A model generated the notes under the pieces. It saw nothing but the letters and a program-made list of their open reading frames with translations. It was not told where the DNA came from and searched no databases. Positions 3,001 to 19,587 of a stretch of 64,000 bases of DNA are shown piece by piece. The DNA comes from Salinirubrum litoreum (GTDB taxonomy: Archaea; Halobacteriota; Halobacteria; Halobacteriales; Haloferacaceae), in the NCBI RefSeq assembly GCF_020567425.1, contig NZ_JAJCVJ010000003.1, positions 434,001 through 498,000 of the forward strand, given 5' to 3'. How positions within the stretch are numbered: the first letter of the stretch is position 1; each line of letters opens with the position of its first letter. A program made the translations under genes and the position numbers.

Positions 3001-5496
3001 GACGCGGCCCACACCGACGCGAACCGCCTCACGCACGTCGATCGGGAGAGGATCGTCGAGATCATCGACAGACTCGACGACCGGGCGGCAGTCGGCGAGA
3101 TTCGGGCCGACCCCCGTATCGCACTTGTCGGCGACACCGTCCAGACGACCGCGACCGTCGAGAACACGGGCACGGAACGCCGGGCGTTCACGGTCACGAC
3201 CGGCCTGCGCGGGCCGAGTGGGATCGTCGCCGACGAACTCGAACGCACCGAGACCGTCCGACTCAGGCCCGACGAGACCGAGACGGTCGAGGCGGGGTTC
3301 GGACTCCCGGCGACGACCGCAGTCGGCGACTACGACGTGGTCGTGACGGTGCAGGAAGCCGACCGCGAGATCACGCGGCGAGTCAACGAGAGCGCCGTCG
3401 ACGTGTTCGGCGACGAGGGGCAGGGCGTCACGGTCGAGTCGGTGTTCACCGACTTCTACGCCCGACCCGGCGAGTCGATCACCGTCGGGATCGGTGTCTC
3501 CTCGGGCGCGGTCCCCCGAGAGGTGGCGGTTCGCTACCACCTCCGGGGACCGACGGGTGACGTCGTCACCCCGCCCGACGCCGAGCGAATCGTCGATCTG
3601 GACGACTTCGACTACGAACACCTGACGGTCGACGTGCCGATCACCGACGCGTTCACCAGTGGGAAGTACGACGTGATCGTCACGGTCGCCGATCCGGGGA
3701 CGGCGGTCGGCGAGTCACCACTCGCCCGGCAGGTCGCGGAGGAGCGCTTCACCGTGGACGCCGCAGAGAGTGGGTCGATCACCCTGGTCCCGACGAGCGA
3801 CTTCTCGGCGAGCGTCGACCTGCGGCGGGACGGCGATCTCGTGGACTCGAGTTTCGTCGACACGGGCGACGACGTCACGTTCACCGGTCTCGCGCGCGGC
3901 GAGTACACCGTCGAGTACCGAACCGTCGCGGTCTTCGGCGGCGGCGAGACGGTCACGCGGTCGGTCGAACTCGGCGAGGGCGACGACCGCGAGATCGAAC
4001 TGTCGCCGGAGCGGGCGTCCGCACGCGGGACCGTGGAGATAGACGGTCGGCGACTCACGGGCGCGACGGTCAACATCAGCGGAGAGCCGGCCAGCACGAA
4101 CGCGGACGGGGCGTTCCAGTTCGGCCGGGACCTCTCCGAAGGGGACCACACCCTGCTCGTCGAGTACGACGACCGGATCATCCACCGCGAGGTGGTCGAG
4201 ATCGACGCCGGCCAGAACGAACTCGACGTGGACATCGACTACGTCGACCCGTACCCCGGTGACGAGTTCGACGCCGACGAGTTCATGCTCGGCTTCTGGT
4301 GTGGCGACTTCTGTTACGGCGCTGACGGCAACGGCCACGCCAACGCCGAGTACATGCTCGGCTGGCTGATCGGGTCGATCAACCCCGCGTTCGACGTCCG
4401 GGACGGTCTCGCGGCGGCCGGTCGGGGCGACGTGGTCGGGGTCGGTCTCTCGCTGATCGGTCTCGCGCCGTACTACGGCGACGGCGTCTCCTTCGGCGGC
4501 CGGTTCGTGAAGTTCGTGGACGACGCGACGCCGCGACAGGTCCACCAACTCCGGGAGATGGTCAGACAGTCCGGACTCGACGCGAAGGATACGATCCTCG
4601 CCAAACTCTACGACGGCGCGGAGACGCGGAAGGTCCTCCGCGACGAGTTCGGTGTGAGTCGGTCGGCGACGACCAGGATGTCGACCGCCGACGCCCGGAC
4701 GCTCCGGCGGTCTGCGGGCCGACTCCGGAACGCCGGGTTCGACGACGACACCATCGGTCGGTTCGTCGAGACGAACAGTCACCAACCGAGTAAAGTCGCG
4801 GAGTTCGGCGACGCGGCCCGCGACTACGCGAAGGCCGCCGGGCAGTCGCCGAACGACGTCGACACAGTGCGTATCGCCAGCAACGCCGACATGCTGGAGG
4901 CGGTGTGGCTCTCCCGGGTCGCCGACGCCGAGCAAGCGACGGTCGCCGGGAAGTGGGACTACAGCAGCCTCGAACCGGGCGAGACCTACGTCACCTCGAA
5001 CGTGAAACTCGAATCGACGGCCGGCGAGACGGTCGGTGAACTCGACGTGGTCGTCTTCGAGGTCGCCGACGACGGCGGCGTCAGGGTGACGAAGGCCTAC
5101 GAGGTCGGCAGCGGGAAGTTGTCGAACAAGCCGGACCGACAGCTCCAGACTGCACTGGAGAACGCGAAGGACACCGGCAGTTCCACCCACGGCTACCTCG
5201 ACGCAGACGCCTTCGGGCGACAGTCGACCGACGAGATGCACGAGGGCTACGTCGGCCTGACCGACGAGTACGACTACGACCTCGCGCGCCAGGCGACCCC
5301 CGACCCCGGCTCGCCGACCTACCCACTGACCGAGTTCAACGACATGAGTCGTGATCTGGACCTCCAGGTCGAGGGCAAACTGATCGACTCGCAGAGCTTC
5401 ACGACGCCCGCCCTGCTCTCGCCAGGCGAACGGTCACAGTCGACGACGCGACCGATGCCGACGCGACTGATGACGCGGGGGACCGTCGATGCGTGA
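43..5496 (+). CDS. Giant secreted CARDB/Ig-repeat protein with pretoxin-like and nuclease-like C-terminus
   Basis: 1817 residues. An AGGAG Shine-Dalgarno at 27-31 supports the ATG at 43. Residues about 28-50 are a hydrophobic export signal ending near AIAAG. At least seven CARDB-like beta units follow, marked by GEYEPGD/ENTG motifs and starting near residues 223, 442, 660, 781, 892, 1016 and 1128. PKD/Ig-like units (WYVDGD) lie between the first three. A carboxypeptidase-regulatory-like segment spans about 1250-1400. The last 400 residues differ: a Cys-containing segment (LGFWCGDFCYG), then a Gly/hydrophobic stretch near 1446-1482 (NPAFDVRDGL, GVGLSLIGLAPYYGDG) resembling pretoxin modules of polymorphic toxins. 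A terminal domain carries GELDVVVFEV (about 1665) and YEVGSGK (about 1686), spaced like the D...E-x-K of PD-(D/E)XK nucleases. Export and repeats are seen; the toxin role is inferred. It overlaps the next gene by 8 nt. Confidence 0.85.
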   Translation: MRDRGSDEVGERRASQQFDRLSSVGDLTAVLCAVLVLTGTLVPFVTPAIAAGDPPEPRLTDVDVPDSVTLGESFEVTVEGRNDGGRGGHYSTISVSSPTFDDPGDGDRVRVTDGSDHAYDTVVSAGETVYTKSGDAVTADYAVAEAGSTGNSYWQGGDARDLSVEFTPEQAGTVVVYVRVTMPDDDDQEAKYTAPEYGDDTDQQGFEVRRYEVEVREEADPTATIEDVRYPSGEFSVGDEVRTEVEVRNTGASDHEFHVGYAVRGEDGEWRDNDASTDESIPLRAGETDTVTVEWTVRDDAPVGEYDVLTKVYTEKSGGDLEDFQDEDSDRDAFRVVSATSPPDLEIDAPTDDPTVGPGERVDFSVDAEDSDGDLDGVEWYVDGDYRDDSYLSGASDSTSWDTTFDDPGTYRVEAVAYDEEREYSEAVSWTVEVRAADPEGDIERVDWPAGEYEPGDVVRTEVDVENTGEAGHEFAVGYSLRGPDGEWHDDDGTTHETVYVPAFDDRTVTVSWRVPEDAPAGEYDGQVALYERVSGDELAGFLDDRSDRNLFRVAPENTAPDLGRESPRDDDVTAEVEESIDFAVDAADTERNLDRVEWYVDGDRVDTEYTSGGSETAELDWTFDESGDYTVSAVAVDTTGAESASLSWDVTVEAVRPEATIRAVDWPTGEYEPGDRVTATVLVENTGLVGHTFHLGYSVRGRDGDWQSNDGTTDEDRYLARGEDDYVDVSWTVPEDAAPGEYDALVAVYRQETTDGLTGRIDDADEGDTFSVVTPRPTTDLDVERLPDGEYTPGETVTTEIDLRNTGDRETIYEVQYRLVGPEGRLVPGADPREISLRPAEEDPITLDRTLPTDAPDGAYDVVVVVTSEYESDRVTVAESDERDAFRIAGADVAVGAVDFDDDRYTAGSVASGTLDLRNPTGTDRRYDLELSVVGPEGRTTEVTVADDDPVTIPADSSVTTDLRWSVADGTPTGTYGIDLSVWPADAAHTDANRLTHVDRERIVEIIDRLDDRAAVGEIRADPRIALVGDTVQTTATVENTGTERRAFTVTTGLRGPSGIVADELERTETVRLRPDETETVEAGFGLPATTAVGDYDVVVTVQEADREITRRVNESAVDVFGDEGQGVTVESVFTDFYARPGESITVGIGVSSGAVPREVAVRYHLRGPTGDVVTPPDAERIVDLDDFDYEHLTVDVPITDAFTSGKYDVIVTVADPGTAVGESPLARQVAEERFTVDAAESGSITLVPTSDFSASVDLRRDGDLVDSSFVDTGDDVTFTGLARGEYTVEYRTVAVFGGGETVTRSVELGEGDDREIELSPERASARGTVEIDGRRLTGATVNISGEPASTNADGAFQFGRDLSEGDHTLLVEYDDRIIHREVVEIDAGQNELDVDIDYVDPYPGDEFDADEFMLGFWCGDFCYGADGNGHANAEYMLGWLIGSINPAFDVRDGLAAAGRGDVVGVGLSLIGLAPYYGDGVSFGGRFVKFVDDATPRQVHQLREMVRQSGLDAKDTILAKLYDGAETRKVLRDEFGVSRSATTRMSTADARTLRRSAGRLRNAGFDDDTIGRFVETNSHQPSKVAEFGDAARDYAKAAGQSPNDVDTVRIASNADMLEAVWLSRVADAEQATVAGKWDYSSLEPGETYVTSNVKLESTAGETVGELDVVVFEVADDGGVRVTKAYEVGSGKLSNKPDRQLQTALENAKDTGSSTHGYLDADAFGRQSTDEMHEGYVGLTDEYDYDLARQATPDPGSPTYPLTEFNDMSRDLDLQVEGKLIDSQSFTTPALLSPGERSQSTTRPMPTRLMTRGTVDA

Positions 5497-13954: not shown

Positions 13955-14300
13955 GTCCACAGGTCGTTTGCCGTCCTCGAAGAGTCTATGAAACCCAACT
14001 TCACCCTCAGGTCAGAGCCATCTGGAACCCAGCCTCGTCCTCTGCTCACAGCCCCTGGAACACCACCATGTCCGGAGTTCTCGCGCGCTGATCGCGTGCG
14101 CTAACTCCCGCTCACTACGGCTTCGAAGCCCCGAAGCACCCGGAAACAGCGGACATCGTGGTGTTGCGTCGGTGATCGGTGTCGGAGAGTCGTCTGGAGG
14201 GAGAGATCGAGATTCGACAGTCCTCTCGGAGAAGTATCTGGACTGGTTCTCGGTCGTGTCGACGGACCGTCTCGAACGCGCACTGTCTCAGATGGTGGCT

Positions 14301-14428
14301 CGTCTCGGATGTGAACCGTCTCGATTGCGGACCGTCTCGGATGTGAACCGTCTCGATTGCGGACCGTCTCGGATGTGAACCGTCTCGATTGCGGACCGTC
14401 TCGAATGTTGATCCGCCTCAGATGGTGA
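14301..14428 (+). repeat. Iteron-like 32-bp tandem repeats in the origin region
   Basis: Three identical 32-bp units start at 14301, 14333 and 14365. Each is two related 16-mers, CGTCTCGGATGTGAAC and CGTCTCGATTGCGGAC. A degraded copy follows (CGTCTCGAATGTTGAT, 14397), and CGTCTCGAACGCGCAC precedes at about 14269. The block is bracketed by identical CTCAGATGGTG at 14287 and 14417. The short period, high identity and position inside the origin resemble plasmid iterons; they are unlike the ORB-like motif. Confidence 0.85.
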
Positions 14429-14910
14429 ATTCGGTGTTCTCACTGACTTCGCTCGGGAGTTGCTCGGTCGGTGCGACCGGTGGACACACCACGATGTCCG
14501 CAGTTCCGGTGTCGGTCGTCGGAACAGCGGACACGGTGGGGTGCTATCGGGCCAGTTGGAGGCCGGTCGGGCGGATCTGATCCGGTTGCCGAAGTGACCT
14601 GTCGCAGAAACCGCCTAGTACCAGTGGGTGAGAACGGTTCACACATTCATACCGGTGAGAGCGGTTTCATCACTCTCGCAGGATGGGATCGATTCAACCG
14701 ATCTCCTCGACTGAACACGAGGAAGTTGCCGAGACGAACACCCCACCGTGTCCGCCGTTCTAGTGACACGTTCGGGGGAGAACAGCGGACATCGTGGTGT
14801 TCGGGTGGTTCAGCAGTGGACCAGCCGGAGTCGATTCTGTGGAAACAGTCGAGAAGAGACGGTTAGACACGGGAGTAGCAGTTACACGAGGGACGAGAGG
14901 AAGGCCGACC

Positions 14911-15144
14911 ACACTCTCCCCCCACTTTGTCCGCGGTTCCGTCGCGAGGAACGGGGAGGGGGGTCGGCCAGACGTTCTTTTGACCCGTGAACGAGTCAAA
15001 AAAACACCACACTAGTGCCGTACGGACTAACTCGCATCGGTAAGTAATAAAGGTGGCGGTAGTAATATAGGCAATATTCCCCGGAGCAGACAGGGGGTGG
15101 TGTTCTTGGAGCCGAGAACAGCGGACACAGTGGGGGGAGTGTGT
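14911..15144. other. Origin core: inverted long ORB-like boxes flanking an AT-rich unwinding element
   Basis: The two copies with the longest G-strings face outward: minus-strand 14911-14939 (reading GAACCGCGGACAAAGTGGGG then GGAGAG) and plus-strand 15115-15144 (GAACAGCGGACACAGTGGGG then GGAGTG). Between them lie a TTTTGAC/GTCAAAA inverted repeat (14978-15001) and the AT-rich stretch 15041-15080 (TAAGTAATAAAGG, AGTAATATAGGCAATATT), the best candidate duplex-unwinding element. Symmetric ORBs around such an element are the usual core of haloarchaeal origins. Confidence 0.75.
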
Positions 15145-15280
15145 CCCCGGCTGTTTCGTGCTTATTTTATATATGAGCAGAACAGCGGACATCGTGGTGT
15201 TCGCCCGCAAGAACTGCGGACACGGTGGTGTCTGACGGACGGGACTCCCGGTGCCCGACTCCAGTCAACAGTCCGCCGAC

Positions 15281-15395
15281 CCGTGACTCTCGAGCCTCGA
15301 CCTTCGACCTTCGACTCGTGACCCTCGACCCTCAACTCTCAACTCCCAACTCTCAACCATTGACTCCGACGTCGACTCTCGACTGTCGACCCCGG
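15281..15395. repeat. Degenerate short-period CTCGACC/CTCAACTC repeat tract
   Basis: About 115 bases of imperfect 7-14-base repetition (CCTCGACCTTCGACC, CCTCAACTCTCAACTC, GTCGACTCTCGACTGTCGAC). It has strong pyrimidine bias on the plus strand and lies between clusters of ORB-like motifs. It codes for nothing convincing. It may be a structural spacer of the origin. Confidence 0.6.
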
Positions 15396-15895
15396 AGCCG
15401 TGACCGTCGCCTCTCCGACCACCGATCTATCGCCCAGCGGCCCTCCAACTTCCACCACGACGGCCTGCCGACCTCCTGCAGGCTCTCCGGGAGAACGGCG
15501 GATGGAGTGCCGGGAGAACAGCGGACGGAGTGGTGTGGCGACGAATATTGTGGTCTCCCAGACGACTCAGAGCTCAGTGCTCGGAGCCGTCCGAGGTCGG
15601 GTTTCTGACCTCGACGGGCGTTCACGGCAATAGCGTCTGTGGCCGAACGAGTGGTGCACGTCGGAGTGTTCCCCCGAGTCTGGTCACGGCCACACCGACA
15701 CCGAGACCGGTAGACGCGTAGGTGTCGCCCGACACACATCGTCGACACACGTCGTTTCGTCATCCCCGAACAGCGGACGTAGTGGTGTCGCCCCTCGCCG
15801 GTTTACTTATAAATGCGGAGAACGGCGGACACTCCGGACACTCCGGACACGGTGGTTTTATGTGACGTGGGGCACACGTGACGCCCGAGTAGCCG

Positions 15896-17164
15896 ATGGG
15901 ACTCTTCGAGCGCGACACCGAAATCTACCGGGACCGCGACGCCCTCCGCGAGGACTACCAGCCGGAGGAGTTGGTCGGACGAGACGACGAACTCGCGACC
16001 TACCGCACCGCCCTCCAACCAGTGATCAACGGCGAGCAACCGAACAACGTCTTTCTGTACGGGAAGACCGGGGTCGGCAAGACCGCCGCGACGCGATATC
16101 TCCTCACGCATCTCGAAGCCGACGCCGCCCAGTACGACGACATCAATCTGACGGTCGTCACGATGAACTGCGACGGTCTCACCTCTTCGTACCAGATTGC
16201 CACGCGACTCGTCAACGAGTTCCGCGACGAGGGAAGCCGGATCAGCACGACCGGCTATCCGCGTGCGAGCGTCTACGAGATGCTGTGGACGGAACTCGAC
16301 GACTGTGGGGGGACCGTTCTCGTCGTCCTCGACGAGGTGGACCACGTCGAAGACGACTCGATCCTCTATCAACTCCCGCGTGCCCGCGCGAACGACAACC
16401 TCTCCGAGGCGAAGATCGGGATCATCGGTATCTCGAACGACTTCTCGTTCCGGGAGGACCTCTCGCCGAAGGTCAGATCGTCGCTGTGTGAACAGGAGAT
16501 CCACTTCCCGGCGTACGACGCCTCCGATCTGCAGATGATCCTCGAACAGCGTGTCTCGGTCGCGTTCCACGAGGACGTGCTCGAACCGGGTGTCATCCCG
16601 CTGTGTGCCGCCTACGGTGCGAAAGACGCCGGTGACGCCCGGCAGTCGATCGACCTGCTGATGAAAGCCGGGGACCTCGCGCGCGACGAAGACACCCAGA
16701 CGGTCACCGAAGATCACGTCGAGCGCGGTCGCCGGGAACTCGAGCGCGGCCGCATCAAGGAGGGGATCACCGGGCTGACTCAACACGGACATCTCGTGCT
16801 CTACGCACTCCTGACACTCGATCTGGAGGGCGAGGCCCCGGTCCGATCACGCGACGTGCGGCCGCGATACACCCGGTTCACCGAGATGGCCGACCGTGAT
16901 CCACTCGTCCCGCGTCGGATGCGCGATCACCTCTCCGAACTGGCGATGCTCGGCATCGTCTCGGTGACCGAACGCAACGAGGGCCGACGCGGCGGGACCT
17001 ACCGCGAGTACGCAATCGACATGGACGTCGATCTGTTGCTCGACGCCATCGAAGACACGGTCCGGGAGGTCGGCATCCACCAGTCGGTCAAGCGATTTCT
17101 CGTGGACGACGAACTCGACCACGGCGACACGGACCTCTCCGACTTCGCTCCCGAGAGTCGGTGA
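15896..17164 (+). CDS. Orc1/Cdc6 family replication initiator
   Basis: 422 residues from the ATG at 15896. The AAA+ domain begins with the family's ELVGRDDEL (25-33). Walker A GKTGVGKT is at 56-63, Walker B VVLDEVDHVE near 141-150, and sensor-1 GISND near 178-182. The C-terminal third (about 300-420) is the winged-helix domain that contacts ORBs. It binds origin repeats and loads MCM. A TATA-like TTTTATG (15856) and TTACTTATAAATG (15803) lie upstream, each next to ORB-like copies, so autoregulation is likely. Haloarchaea carry many orc1/cdc6 paralogues, each pairing with its own adjacent motif; I give no number to this one. Confidence 0.95.
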   Translation: MGLFERDTEIYRDRDALREDYQPEELVGRDDELATYRTALQPVINGEQPNNVFLYGKTGVGKTAATRYLLTHLEADAAQYDDINLTVVTMNCDGLTSSYQIATRLVNEFRDEGSRISTTGYPRASVYEMLWTELDDCGGTVLVVLDEVDHVEDDSILYQLPRARANDNLSEAKIGIIGISNDFSFREDLSPKVRSSLCEQEIHFPAYDASDLQMILEQRVSVAFHEDVLEPGVIPLCAAYGAKDAGDARQSIDLLMKAGDLARDEDTQTVTEDHVERGRRELERGRIKEGITGLTQHGHLVLYALLTLDLEGEAPVRSRDVRPRYTRFTEMADRDPLVPRRMRDHLSELAMLGIVSVTERNEGRRGGTYREYAIDMDVDLLLDAIEDTVREVGIHQSVKRFLVDDELDHGDTDLSDFAPESR

Positions 17165-17480
17165 CGACCACTGCGCGCTCTCGTCGACGAACGACGATCT
17201 GCCCCGGCAGGGAGCGCAGTTTTCTCCGGACATGGTGGTGTACCTCGGTGCCCTCTCGGCCGACGTTCGAACGGTCTCCCGGTCGCCAGGCTCACTGCCG
17301 ACTCCGGCACTCGGCAAAACCGCTGGTGACACCTCACCCCGACACCACCGTGTCCGGTGTAACTCGGTAGAGTCCTCCTCTCGGCTGTTGACGCTCGGTC
17401 CTCGTCGAACACCACCCTGTCCGCAGTAACCGTCGGCTTCAGGCGCTGAAACGAGTGCAGAAGCGACCTCGGTTTACTCG

Positions 17481-17780: not shown

Positions 17781-17874
17781 ACCGACCGAACGATCGGACG
17801 AGATGCCGGTCGAACTGTCGGACGCGATGCCGGTCGAACTGTCGGACGCGATGCCGGTCGAACCGTCGGCCGAG
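17781..17874 (+). repeat. 24-bp tandem repeats between two small zinc-protein genes
   Basis: Units close to ATGCCGGTCGAACTGTCGGA plus CGCG start at 17803, 17827 and 17851. The first two are identical and the third has three changes. A partial diverged unit starts near 17781. The period is a multiple of three and the tract is open in several frames, but it is not part of a recognisable protein. It lies in the divergent promoter space of the genes starting at 17726 and 17959. Confidence 0.85.
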
Positions 17875-18328: not shown

Positions 18329-18727
18329 TCACTCCTCGTCTGCCCGTTCGGCGTCGATCTGTGCTGCGATCTCGTCGACGTGTTCGGCCGCGACGTGGAC
18401 GACCGCGTCGTGGAACTCACGGCTCGTCAGGTCCCTGATCCCGTGTTCCGAGCGAAGCGCCGCCTCTACGCCGAACTCGGTGTCTTCGAACAGTTCGAGC
18501 GTTCCGTCGCGCACGTAGAGACTCTTCGCGCTCGTTTCGTCGAAGGCGAACGCCGGTCCCCCGGCGCGATCGGCCTCCGTCTCCTCTGTCGACTCGGACG
18601 TATCGGTCCCGTCTCCGCCGGCGGTCGCATCCGTGGCGGTGGCGTCGTCCGATCCGGACACGTCTTCCACTTGCTCGGGGTCGTCCAACTGCTCGCCGAT
18701 CCCGGCGAAGCGGTTGTCGTCCGGCAT
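18329..18727 (-). CDS. ParA-partner candidate (acidic, N-terminal disordered)
   Basis: 132 residues; its ATG overlaps the parA stop by one base, so the two are one operon. The first 65 residues are disordered and acidic (SGSDDATATDATAGGDGTDT). A short folded C-terminal domain follows (SAKSLYVRDGTLELFEDTEF, REFHDAVVHVAAEHVDEIAA). Small proteins directly downstream of archaeal parA genes often replace ParB, but this one shows no ParB or ribbon-helix-helix motif. The partner role is inferred from position only. Confidence 0.75.
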   Translation of the reverse strand: MPDDNRFAGIGEQLDDPEQVEDVSGSDDATATDATAGGDGTDTSESTEETEADRAGGPAFAFDETSAKSLYVRDGTLELFEDTEFGVEAALRSEHGIRDLTSREFHDAVVHVAAEHVDEIAAQIDAERADEE

Positions 18728-19587
18728 CAGTCACTCCCTCCGGGCGGTCGGGTTGTCGTCCCACCGTTCTCTACGATCCGTGCGAGTTCGTCCAGTCTGT
18801 CGAGCATGTCGTTGTCGGGGTCGTACTCTCTGAGCGTCTGTCCGTCGCGCCACGCCCTGCTGAAGGCGATCCGGTGGCGGATTCCCGGGCCGGCACTCGC
18901 CGGTTCGTCGAACTCCACCGACCGCGCGAACTCCGGTAAGAACTCGGCGAACGGCGAGTCTTCCAGATCCTCGATGATCCGGCGCTCCTCGTTGTTCCCC
19001 GTCAGATCGTTCGGGACGATGGCCAGCAAGTCCAGATCGACCTCGTTTCTGATGGGTTGAATCTGGTGGCTCCACATCCGCTCGAAGCCGCTGACGCTCG
19101 GTTCGCTCATCAGCAGTGGCACGATCACGTGCTGGGACCCGATCAGTGCCGCGTCGGACAACGGGCCGAGGTTCGGCGGGGAGTCCATGACGAGGTAGTC
19201 GTACTCGTCGCCGACCAGTGGGTCGACGATCCGGCGCTGGACCCACAGCATCCCGAACGTCGAGTTCCGGATCTTGTCTTCGGCCTGATCCAGATCGACG
19301 TTCGCCGGGAGCACGTCGAACGTCTCGCCGTCCCCCTGGGCCGGTCGTTCCCGGATCACTTCGCGCACGTCCACCGGATCGGTGTCGGTCAGTACGTCGC
19401 CGACGTGTGGTGATCCGGACTCGTACACGTCGCTCATGCCGACGCCTTCGGTCGCGTTCCCCTGCTGGTCGAGGTCCACCAGCAGGACGTCGTTCCCCCG
19501 CGCGACCAGTGCGTCCGCGAGGTTGATCGCCAGCGTGGTCTTGCCGACCCCACCCTTCTGGAGGGAGACGCTCACCGCACGACTCAC
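18727..19587 (-). CDS. ParA/Soj family partition ATPase
   Basis: 286 residues. The deviant Walker A of the ParA/MinD family is at 11-18 (KGGVGKTT), Walker A-prime DLDQQGNATEG at 38-48 and Walker B LVMDSPPNLG at 132-141. ParA ATPases bind DNA as ATP-dimers and segregate replicons with a centromere-binding partner. Here a 132-residue protein follows in the same operon, and paired AT-rich repeats lie just upstream of the start. Located 1.6 kb from the orc1/cdc6 gene, it suggests an active partition module for this replicon, though orphan chromosomal ParA paralogues also exist. Confidence 0.93.
   Translation of the reverse strand: MSRAVSVSLQKGGVGKTTLAINLADALVARGNDVLLVDLDQQGNATEGVGMSDVYESGSPHVGDVLTDTDPVDVREVIRERPAQGDGETFDVLPANVDLDQAEDKIRNSTFGMLWVQRRIVDPLVGDEYDYLVMDSPPNLGPLSDAALIGSQHVIVPLLMSEPSVSGFERMWSHQIQPIRNEVDLDLLAIVPNDLTGNNEERRIIEDLEDSPFAEFLPEFARSVEFDEPASAGPGIRHRIAFSRAWRDGQTLREYDPDNDMLDRLDELARIVENGGTTTRPPGGSD

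Follow-up and report, generated by a model that had tools for sequence, protein, structure and literature searches.

Initiator gene, boxes and probable origin core

The analysed window, a stretch of 64,000 nucleotides, corresponds to bases 434001–498000 of contig C3 (596,033 bp), one of five contigs of a 4.06-Mb haloarchaeal genome. The locus is built around a gene at 15896–17164 (+ strand) coding for a full-length Orc1/Cdc6 initiator of 422 aa, in which profile matches identify an AAA+ domain, a Cdc6 lid and a C-terminal winged helix (TIGR02928, 437 bits; Pfam AAA_22, Cdc6_lid, and Cdc6_C). The closest relatives with solved structures are A. pernix ORC1 and S. solfataricus Orc1-1 (PDB 2v1u, 1e-63, and 2qby, 4e-61). 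A profile search of the contig found no second full-length Orc1 on C3. The C-terminal part of another Orc1/Cdc6 (profile positions 183–359, in a 216-aa frame), probably a remnant, is located at G000:C3:337622-338161 (L018).

The gene is flanked by repeated boxes of the ORB type. With the consensus AACNSCGGACRNNGTGGTGT and up to two mismatches allowed, the scan of the whole genome found 19 copies, of which 16 lie at 14060–17428, ten on the + and six on the − strand, and three elsewhere; at up to one mismatch all 12 copies in the genome (12/12) lie inside this region. The initial annotation, which had counted about 16 copies on both strands, was therefore right in number as well as in coordinates, and the motif is not common elsewhere in the genome. 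The exact 20-mer that it had singled out has three perfect copies (14145, 14781, and 15181) and nine copies at up to three mismatches, as against none expected from 100 dinucleotide shuffles. Two of the 16 boxes belong to an inverted repeat, one lies within a composite element at the promoter of the gene, and 13 are distributed around the core and 3′ of the gene. Eight of these 13 match the consensus perfectly: 14060–14079 (−), which is of the plain GTGGTGT type, 14145–14164 (+), 14486–14505 (−), 14781–14800 (+), 15181–15200 (+), 15212–15231 (+), 15517–15536 (+), and 15769–15788 (+). Single mismatches are found at 14523–14542 (+) and 14740–14759 (−) and in two of the three downstream boxes, 17342–17361 (−) and 17409–17428 (−), the third, 17222–17241 (+), having two.

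The box skeleton, CA-S-Y-GGA-M-AC-NNN-GG, recurs, with one or two mismatches, near other Orc genes in this genome. The view that the motif is unlike the chromosomal haloarchaeal ORB thus needs correction, as the ORB skeleton is retained and it is the exact boxes that differ between Orc genes; those in the intergenic regions flanking this gene are specific to its Orc. A motif unrelated to ORBs is ruled out by the retained skeleton, and a genome-wide repeat or mobile element by the exclusivity of the boxes to the locus. The repeats found at the other Orc genes are TTTCACCGGAAAC (C1; L109/L014), GTTCCACCTGAAACNNAGGGG (C2, oriC1-like; L111), and TTACAACTCGAAAA (C5; L015). Among the boxes to the left of the core there is also a tandem array of period 32 with about 4.5 copies of CGGACCGTCTCGGATGTGAACCGTCTCGATTG (14263–14425).

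The core consists of an inverted repeat whose 36-nt arms, 14904–14939 (−) and 15116–15151 (+), are 83% complementary and 176 nt apart. Each arm holds one box, 14919–14938 (−) in the left and 15117–15136 (+) in the right, with the G-run directed outward, and both boxes end in GTGGGGGG, the halophile-specific G-string feature. Between them lies an AT-rich stretch at 15019–15078 (no strand), the probable duplex-unwinding element; it is modest, with 58% AT in a replicon of 66% GC, and as the best 60 bp it belongs to the top 0.35% of the window. The two outward-facing long-G copies bracketing an AT-rich core, noticed earlier, are thus real, and at 14904–15151 an AT-rich element is flanked by inverted ORBs. 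The core is separated from the orc start codon by 779 nt, as compared with 110–125 nt in most relatives, because of a long interval that is partly of low complexity, with degenerate heptamer repeats (CGACCCT / GACTCTC) at 15277–15390; the relatives are without such a long interval. With the spacing thus altered, the origin could be a weaker one.

On the other side of the gene, a ParA-type partition ATPase is encoded at 18727–19587 (−; profile matches), overlapped by a small ORF at 18329–18727 (−) that is the partner of ParA in relatives too. ParA is found near this orc in 19 of the compared loci, in 14 of which, all from Haloferax, it is 77–80% identical; ParA and the small ORF stay near this orc in the Haloferax relatives, but the side of orc on which they lie varies. 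Boxes targeting the parA promoter were ruled out, none being present near 19.6 kb at up to three mismatches. A further tandem array, of period 24 with 3.7 copies (CGAACTGTCGGACGAGATGCCGGT), occupies 17787–17874, between the DUF7542 gene and the next gene.

Position on the replicon and related origins

On C3 the cumulative GC skew is highest at 449,243, which is position 15,243 of the window, and its range is larger than in block shuffles (P 0 to 0.004). When the locus is masked the maximum shifts only to 452.3 kb (within 3.2 kb); with 444–456 kb masked, the detrended maximum lies at 440 kb. The raw curve forms a broad plateau over 409–456 kb, and where exactly it peaks depends in part on the origin region. 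Two relatives for which origin maps have been published also have a high local skew maximum close to this gene, pHH400 at 3,099, with cdc6K at 1–1245, and pHME505 at 337,998, with orc at 334760–336004, although the global maximum lies 17–31 kb from orc in both.

The initiator is 74–88% identical to Orc1 proteins from many haloarchaeal genera, referred to here as the F1 family. Boxes are present at all 47 analysed F1 loci, 4–15 upstream (median 8) and 0–11 downstream (median 3) of the gene, with 3 of 540 inside it, and in four complete plasmids most boxes concentrate at the gene of this family, with a few scattered extras. The initial annotation had proposed a new initiator–motif pair. This fails, since the same boxes accompany the same Orc1 family at some 47 haloarchaeal loci, including pHH400 and pHM500, and a motif scan of haloarchaeal orc1/cdc6 flanks finds the motif beside this family in dozens of haloarchaea. 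Linked Orc/Cdc6 and ORB families were already described by Wu et al. 2012 (PMC3528665), who printed a close box, TAACAGCGGAAACAGTGGGGTGGGGGGGT. A literature search with the literal CAGCGGACA and archaea returned no origin paper; published logos sit in figures and supplements. A search at the genus level returned no genome besides the present one.

The initiator shares 75.8% identity with cdc6K, 79.3% with the orc of pHM500, and 86% with Halobaculum plasmid orcs. The first two values fall narrowly short of the 80% Orc/Cdc6 identity that Wu et al. 2012 (PMC3528665) set as the minimum for grouping. Sister Orc families with other boxes show about 62% identity or less, and the lineage is therefore distinct despite this narrow miss. 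The ORB consensus is the same as in the oriP-cdc6K / cdc6M lineage, and the locus is a further member of this known, widespread lineage of orc/cdc6-adjacent origins (oriP-cdc6K / oriP2-cdc6M / ori-pHV4-orc3). As the lineage is spread over many genera, the results obtained for cdc6K and cdc6M become transferable. The pHH400 oriP has ARS activity (PMC3528665), MFA and nucleotide disparity indicate one origin on this plasmid (PMC3936714), and oriP and cdc6K resisted deletion (PMC3936714). cdc6M is 98% identical to H. volcanii orc3 and marks the sole MFA peak of pHM500 (PMC4595724). The origins of pHH400 and pHM500 were thus established experimentally, by ARS assay, attempted deletion, and marker frequency (PMC3936714, PMC4595724). 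H. volcanii orc3 was matched to plasmid genes through the published primer MHorc3R1, which agrees with the F1-family orc of pHME505 in 27 of 28 aligned bases, with one extra base creating a BamHI site, and gave no match when aligned to the other pHME505 orc. As the link is made through a primer and not a stated accession, we infer that the pHM500 initiator of this family is cdc6M, the counterpart of orc3/ori-pHV4.

oriP-cdc6K of H. hispanica pHH400 (PMC3528665, PMC3936714, PMC4441112) shares with the present locus the box consensus, with the initially annotated 20-mer present twice in unaltered form, the G-rich boxes 5′ of the gene, the composite before orc and a high local skew maximum nearby. 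It differs in having 11 boxes (up to two mismatches) instead of 16, a distance of 127 nt instead of 779 nt from the G-rich box to the gene, and G-rich boxes of the form GTGGGGTGGG instead of GTGGGGGG. oriP2-cdc6M of Haloferax mediterranei pHM500, with H. volcanii orc3 (ori-pHV4), is alike in the boxes, the promoter composite, and the downstream ParA pair, but its composite has two ORB cores (three here) and its right core box lies 112 nt from orc (779 nt here). The closest annotated plasmid relatives, by the Orc1 identity given above, are Halobaculum plasmid origins (e.g. NZ_CP081960 and NZ_CP120469); NZ_CP081960, the one whose composite was read, has the boxes and the composite, though with a shorter core–gene distance and four composite cores. 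In H. magnesiiphilum, unlike here, TnpB genes adjoin the origin. Two other loci carry iteron-like direct arrays of the box 3′ of orc, one of eight copies about 39 bp apart (L060, 3074–3367) and one of seven copies 34 bp apart (L029, 5507–5730).

Candidate origin of C3 and competing explanations

The exclusive boxes, the inverted G-string pair with its AT-rich core, the adjoining initiator gene, the C3 skew maximum, and the mapped relatives together support well the initial reading of the locus as a replication origin. The region 14060–17428, initiator gene included, is very probably (roughly 0.88) the Orc1/Cdc6-dependent origin of C3, a secondary replicon of 596 kb, for which a candidate origin is thereby mapped. 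From the features computed here, namely the boxes and their exclusivity, the cross-species Orc pairing, the skew peak, and the promoter composite, we infer that the origin is active in this strain and works by the following scheme, in which Orc1 may also repress its own gene. Orc1 would recognise and bind the inverted pair of G-string boxes, open the AT-rich stretch that they enclose, and load MCM. G-strings are essential at H. hispanica oriC1 (PMC3936714). The plain boxes on either side of the gene are probably also bound by this Orc1 and would keep it in reserve by titration, an effect shown for H. hispanica oriC2.

A structurally complete locus might nevertheless be a dormant origin, C3 normally replicating from elsewhere or firing here only once other origins are lost. 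Dormant origins with inverted ORBs are known from H. mediterranei (oriC4-cdc6H and oriP1-cdc6L; PMC4595724), and, compared with its relatives, the locus has its core displaced from orc by a further 650 nt or so. Yet C3 carries no other full-length Orc1 and has its skew maximum at this locus, and the mapped members of the family, those of pHH400, pHM500, and H. volcanii ori-pHV4, are active, so dormancy appears unlikely.

The two remaining explanations leave the boxes in place but assign them another task. If they formed mainly a titration or incompatibility cluster similar to datA or oriC2D, the origin proper would lie elsewhere. H. hispanica provides the precedent in oriC2D, a set of 11 ORBs 3′ of cdc6E which is inactive as an origin and represses oriC2 (PMC3936714), and many boxes of the present locus are likewise without G-strings. 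oriC2-cdc6E with oriC2D resembles the locus in its extra ORBs 3′ of the initiator gene, but it belongs to another Orc and packs its 11 ORBs into 722 bp, as against three downstream boxes here. The presence of the G-string pair and AT-rich core as a 36-nt inverted repeat and the ARS activity of the homologous pHH400 region make a pure titration cluster improbable, and titration and origin function can coexist. Still more remote is the idea that the boxes serve transcription only, Orc1 being a regulator and no initiator, as is Orc1-2 of S. islandicus, a paralog of Orc1 that does not act as an initiator and binds the promoter of its own gene (PMC9738581). Against it stand the inverted G-string pair, the AT-rich core, the skew peak, and the active origins of relatives; moreover, the boxes are not scattered over other promoters.

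A composite element at the orc promoter

Directly 5′ of orc, at 15819–15861 (+), lies an operator-like composite element, AGAACGGCGGACACTCCGGACACTCCGGACACGGTGG-TTTTAT, with three 9-bp ORB cores, which includes the ORB match at 15839–15858. It is preceded by a TATA-like box (CTTATAAA) at 15806–15813 (+), which starts 50 nt before TTTTAT. In nearly all relatives an element of the general form GAAC(N2CGGAMRC)2-4GGTGG-TTTTAT occupies the same place, its two to four 9-bp units (N2CGGAMRC) arranged head to tail and its TTTTAT nearly invariant; from its end to the aligned orc start there are 24–40 nt. Of 50 loci, some of them from sister families, 41 have a TATA-like hexamer upstream, as against 1.4% of control stretches. 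The distance from the TATA-like box to the first core is 19–25 bp (about 21) regardless of the number of cores (two, three, or four), and additional cores therefore displace the TATA-like box outward by about 9 bp per step. The usual archaeal spacing between TATA box and transcription start would place the start inside the composite.

The association of the composite with this initiator was surveyed by searching 119 genomes, all from the taxonomic family to which the present one belongs, for a 32-nt pattern. The pattern is present in 42 of them and this Orc in 42, both together in 41; thus, the composite accompanies 41 of the 42 genomes with this Orc and one of the 77 without it (Fisher P 1e-29). 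It occurs about once per genome, and in the present genome the 32-nt core pattern occurs once. In most other Orc families the composite is similar to that family's own boxes, as in CACTGGACAC (the 61% family), CGTTGGAAG (Halorussus vallis plasmid 4), and TCGACACGGTGG (pR1SE2). The co-change of boxes and composite is uneven, being weak for family L161 and for the F4 loci L162 and L165; the boxes of F1 and F4 are alike.

To our knowledge the composite is a new element; in the part of the literature covered we found no paper on an operator derived from ORBs at the promoter of a haloarchaeal initiator gene. Orc1 may repress its own transcription by binding the composite, which lies 3′ of the TATA-like box. 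In other Orc families the composite usually changes together with the boxes. This co-change, the fixed distance to the TATA-like box, and the tie to this Orc family point to autoregulation of the initiator. We consider it an even chance that a box variant fixed at the initiator promoter lets the initiator control its own production. The broader reading, with odds that are equally balanced, is that a dedicated operator of two to four fused ORB cores over the presumed start site makes autoregulation a property of initiators of this class, and, as part of the same reading, that the operator may co-evolve with the origin boxes as Orc specificity changes. Such co-evolution would mean that one protein–DNA code serves both origin firing and initiator supply. 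Alternatively, TTTTAT itself could serve as TATA element for a transcript with a short leader, and Orc1 binding would then hinder transcription as well. Autoregulation through the composite offers a testable model for the setting of initiator level in archaea, comparable to the role of the DnaA boxes that the dnaA promoter carries. An extra copy of the composite was observed in genome G092, 386 nt before the end of a contig of 250,847 bases, and a plasmid record of 250,847 bases contains a second orc place (H7).
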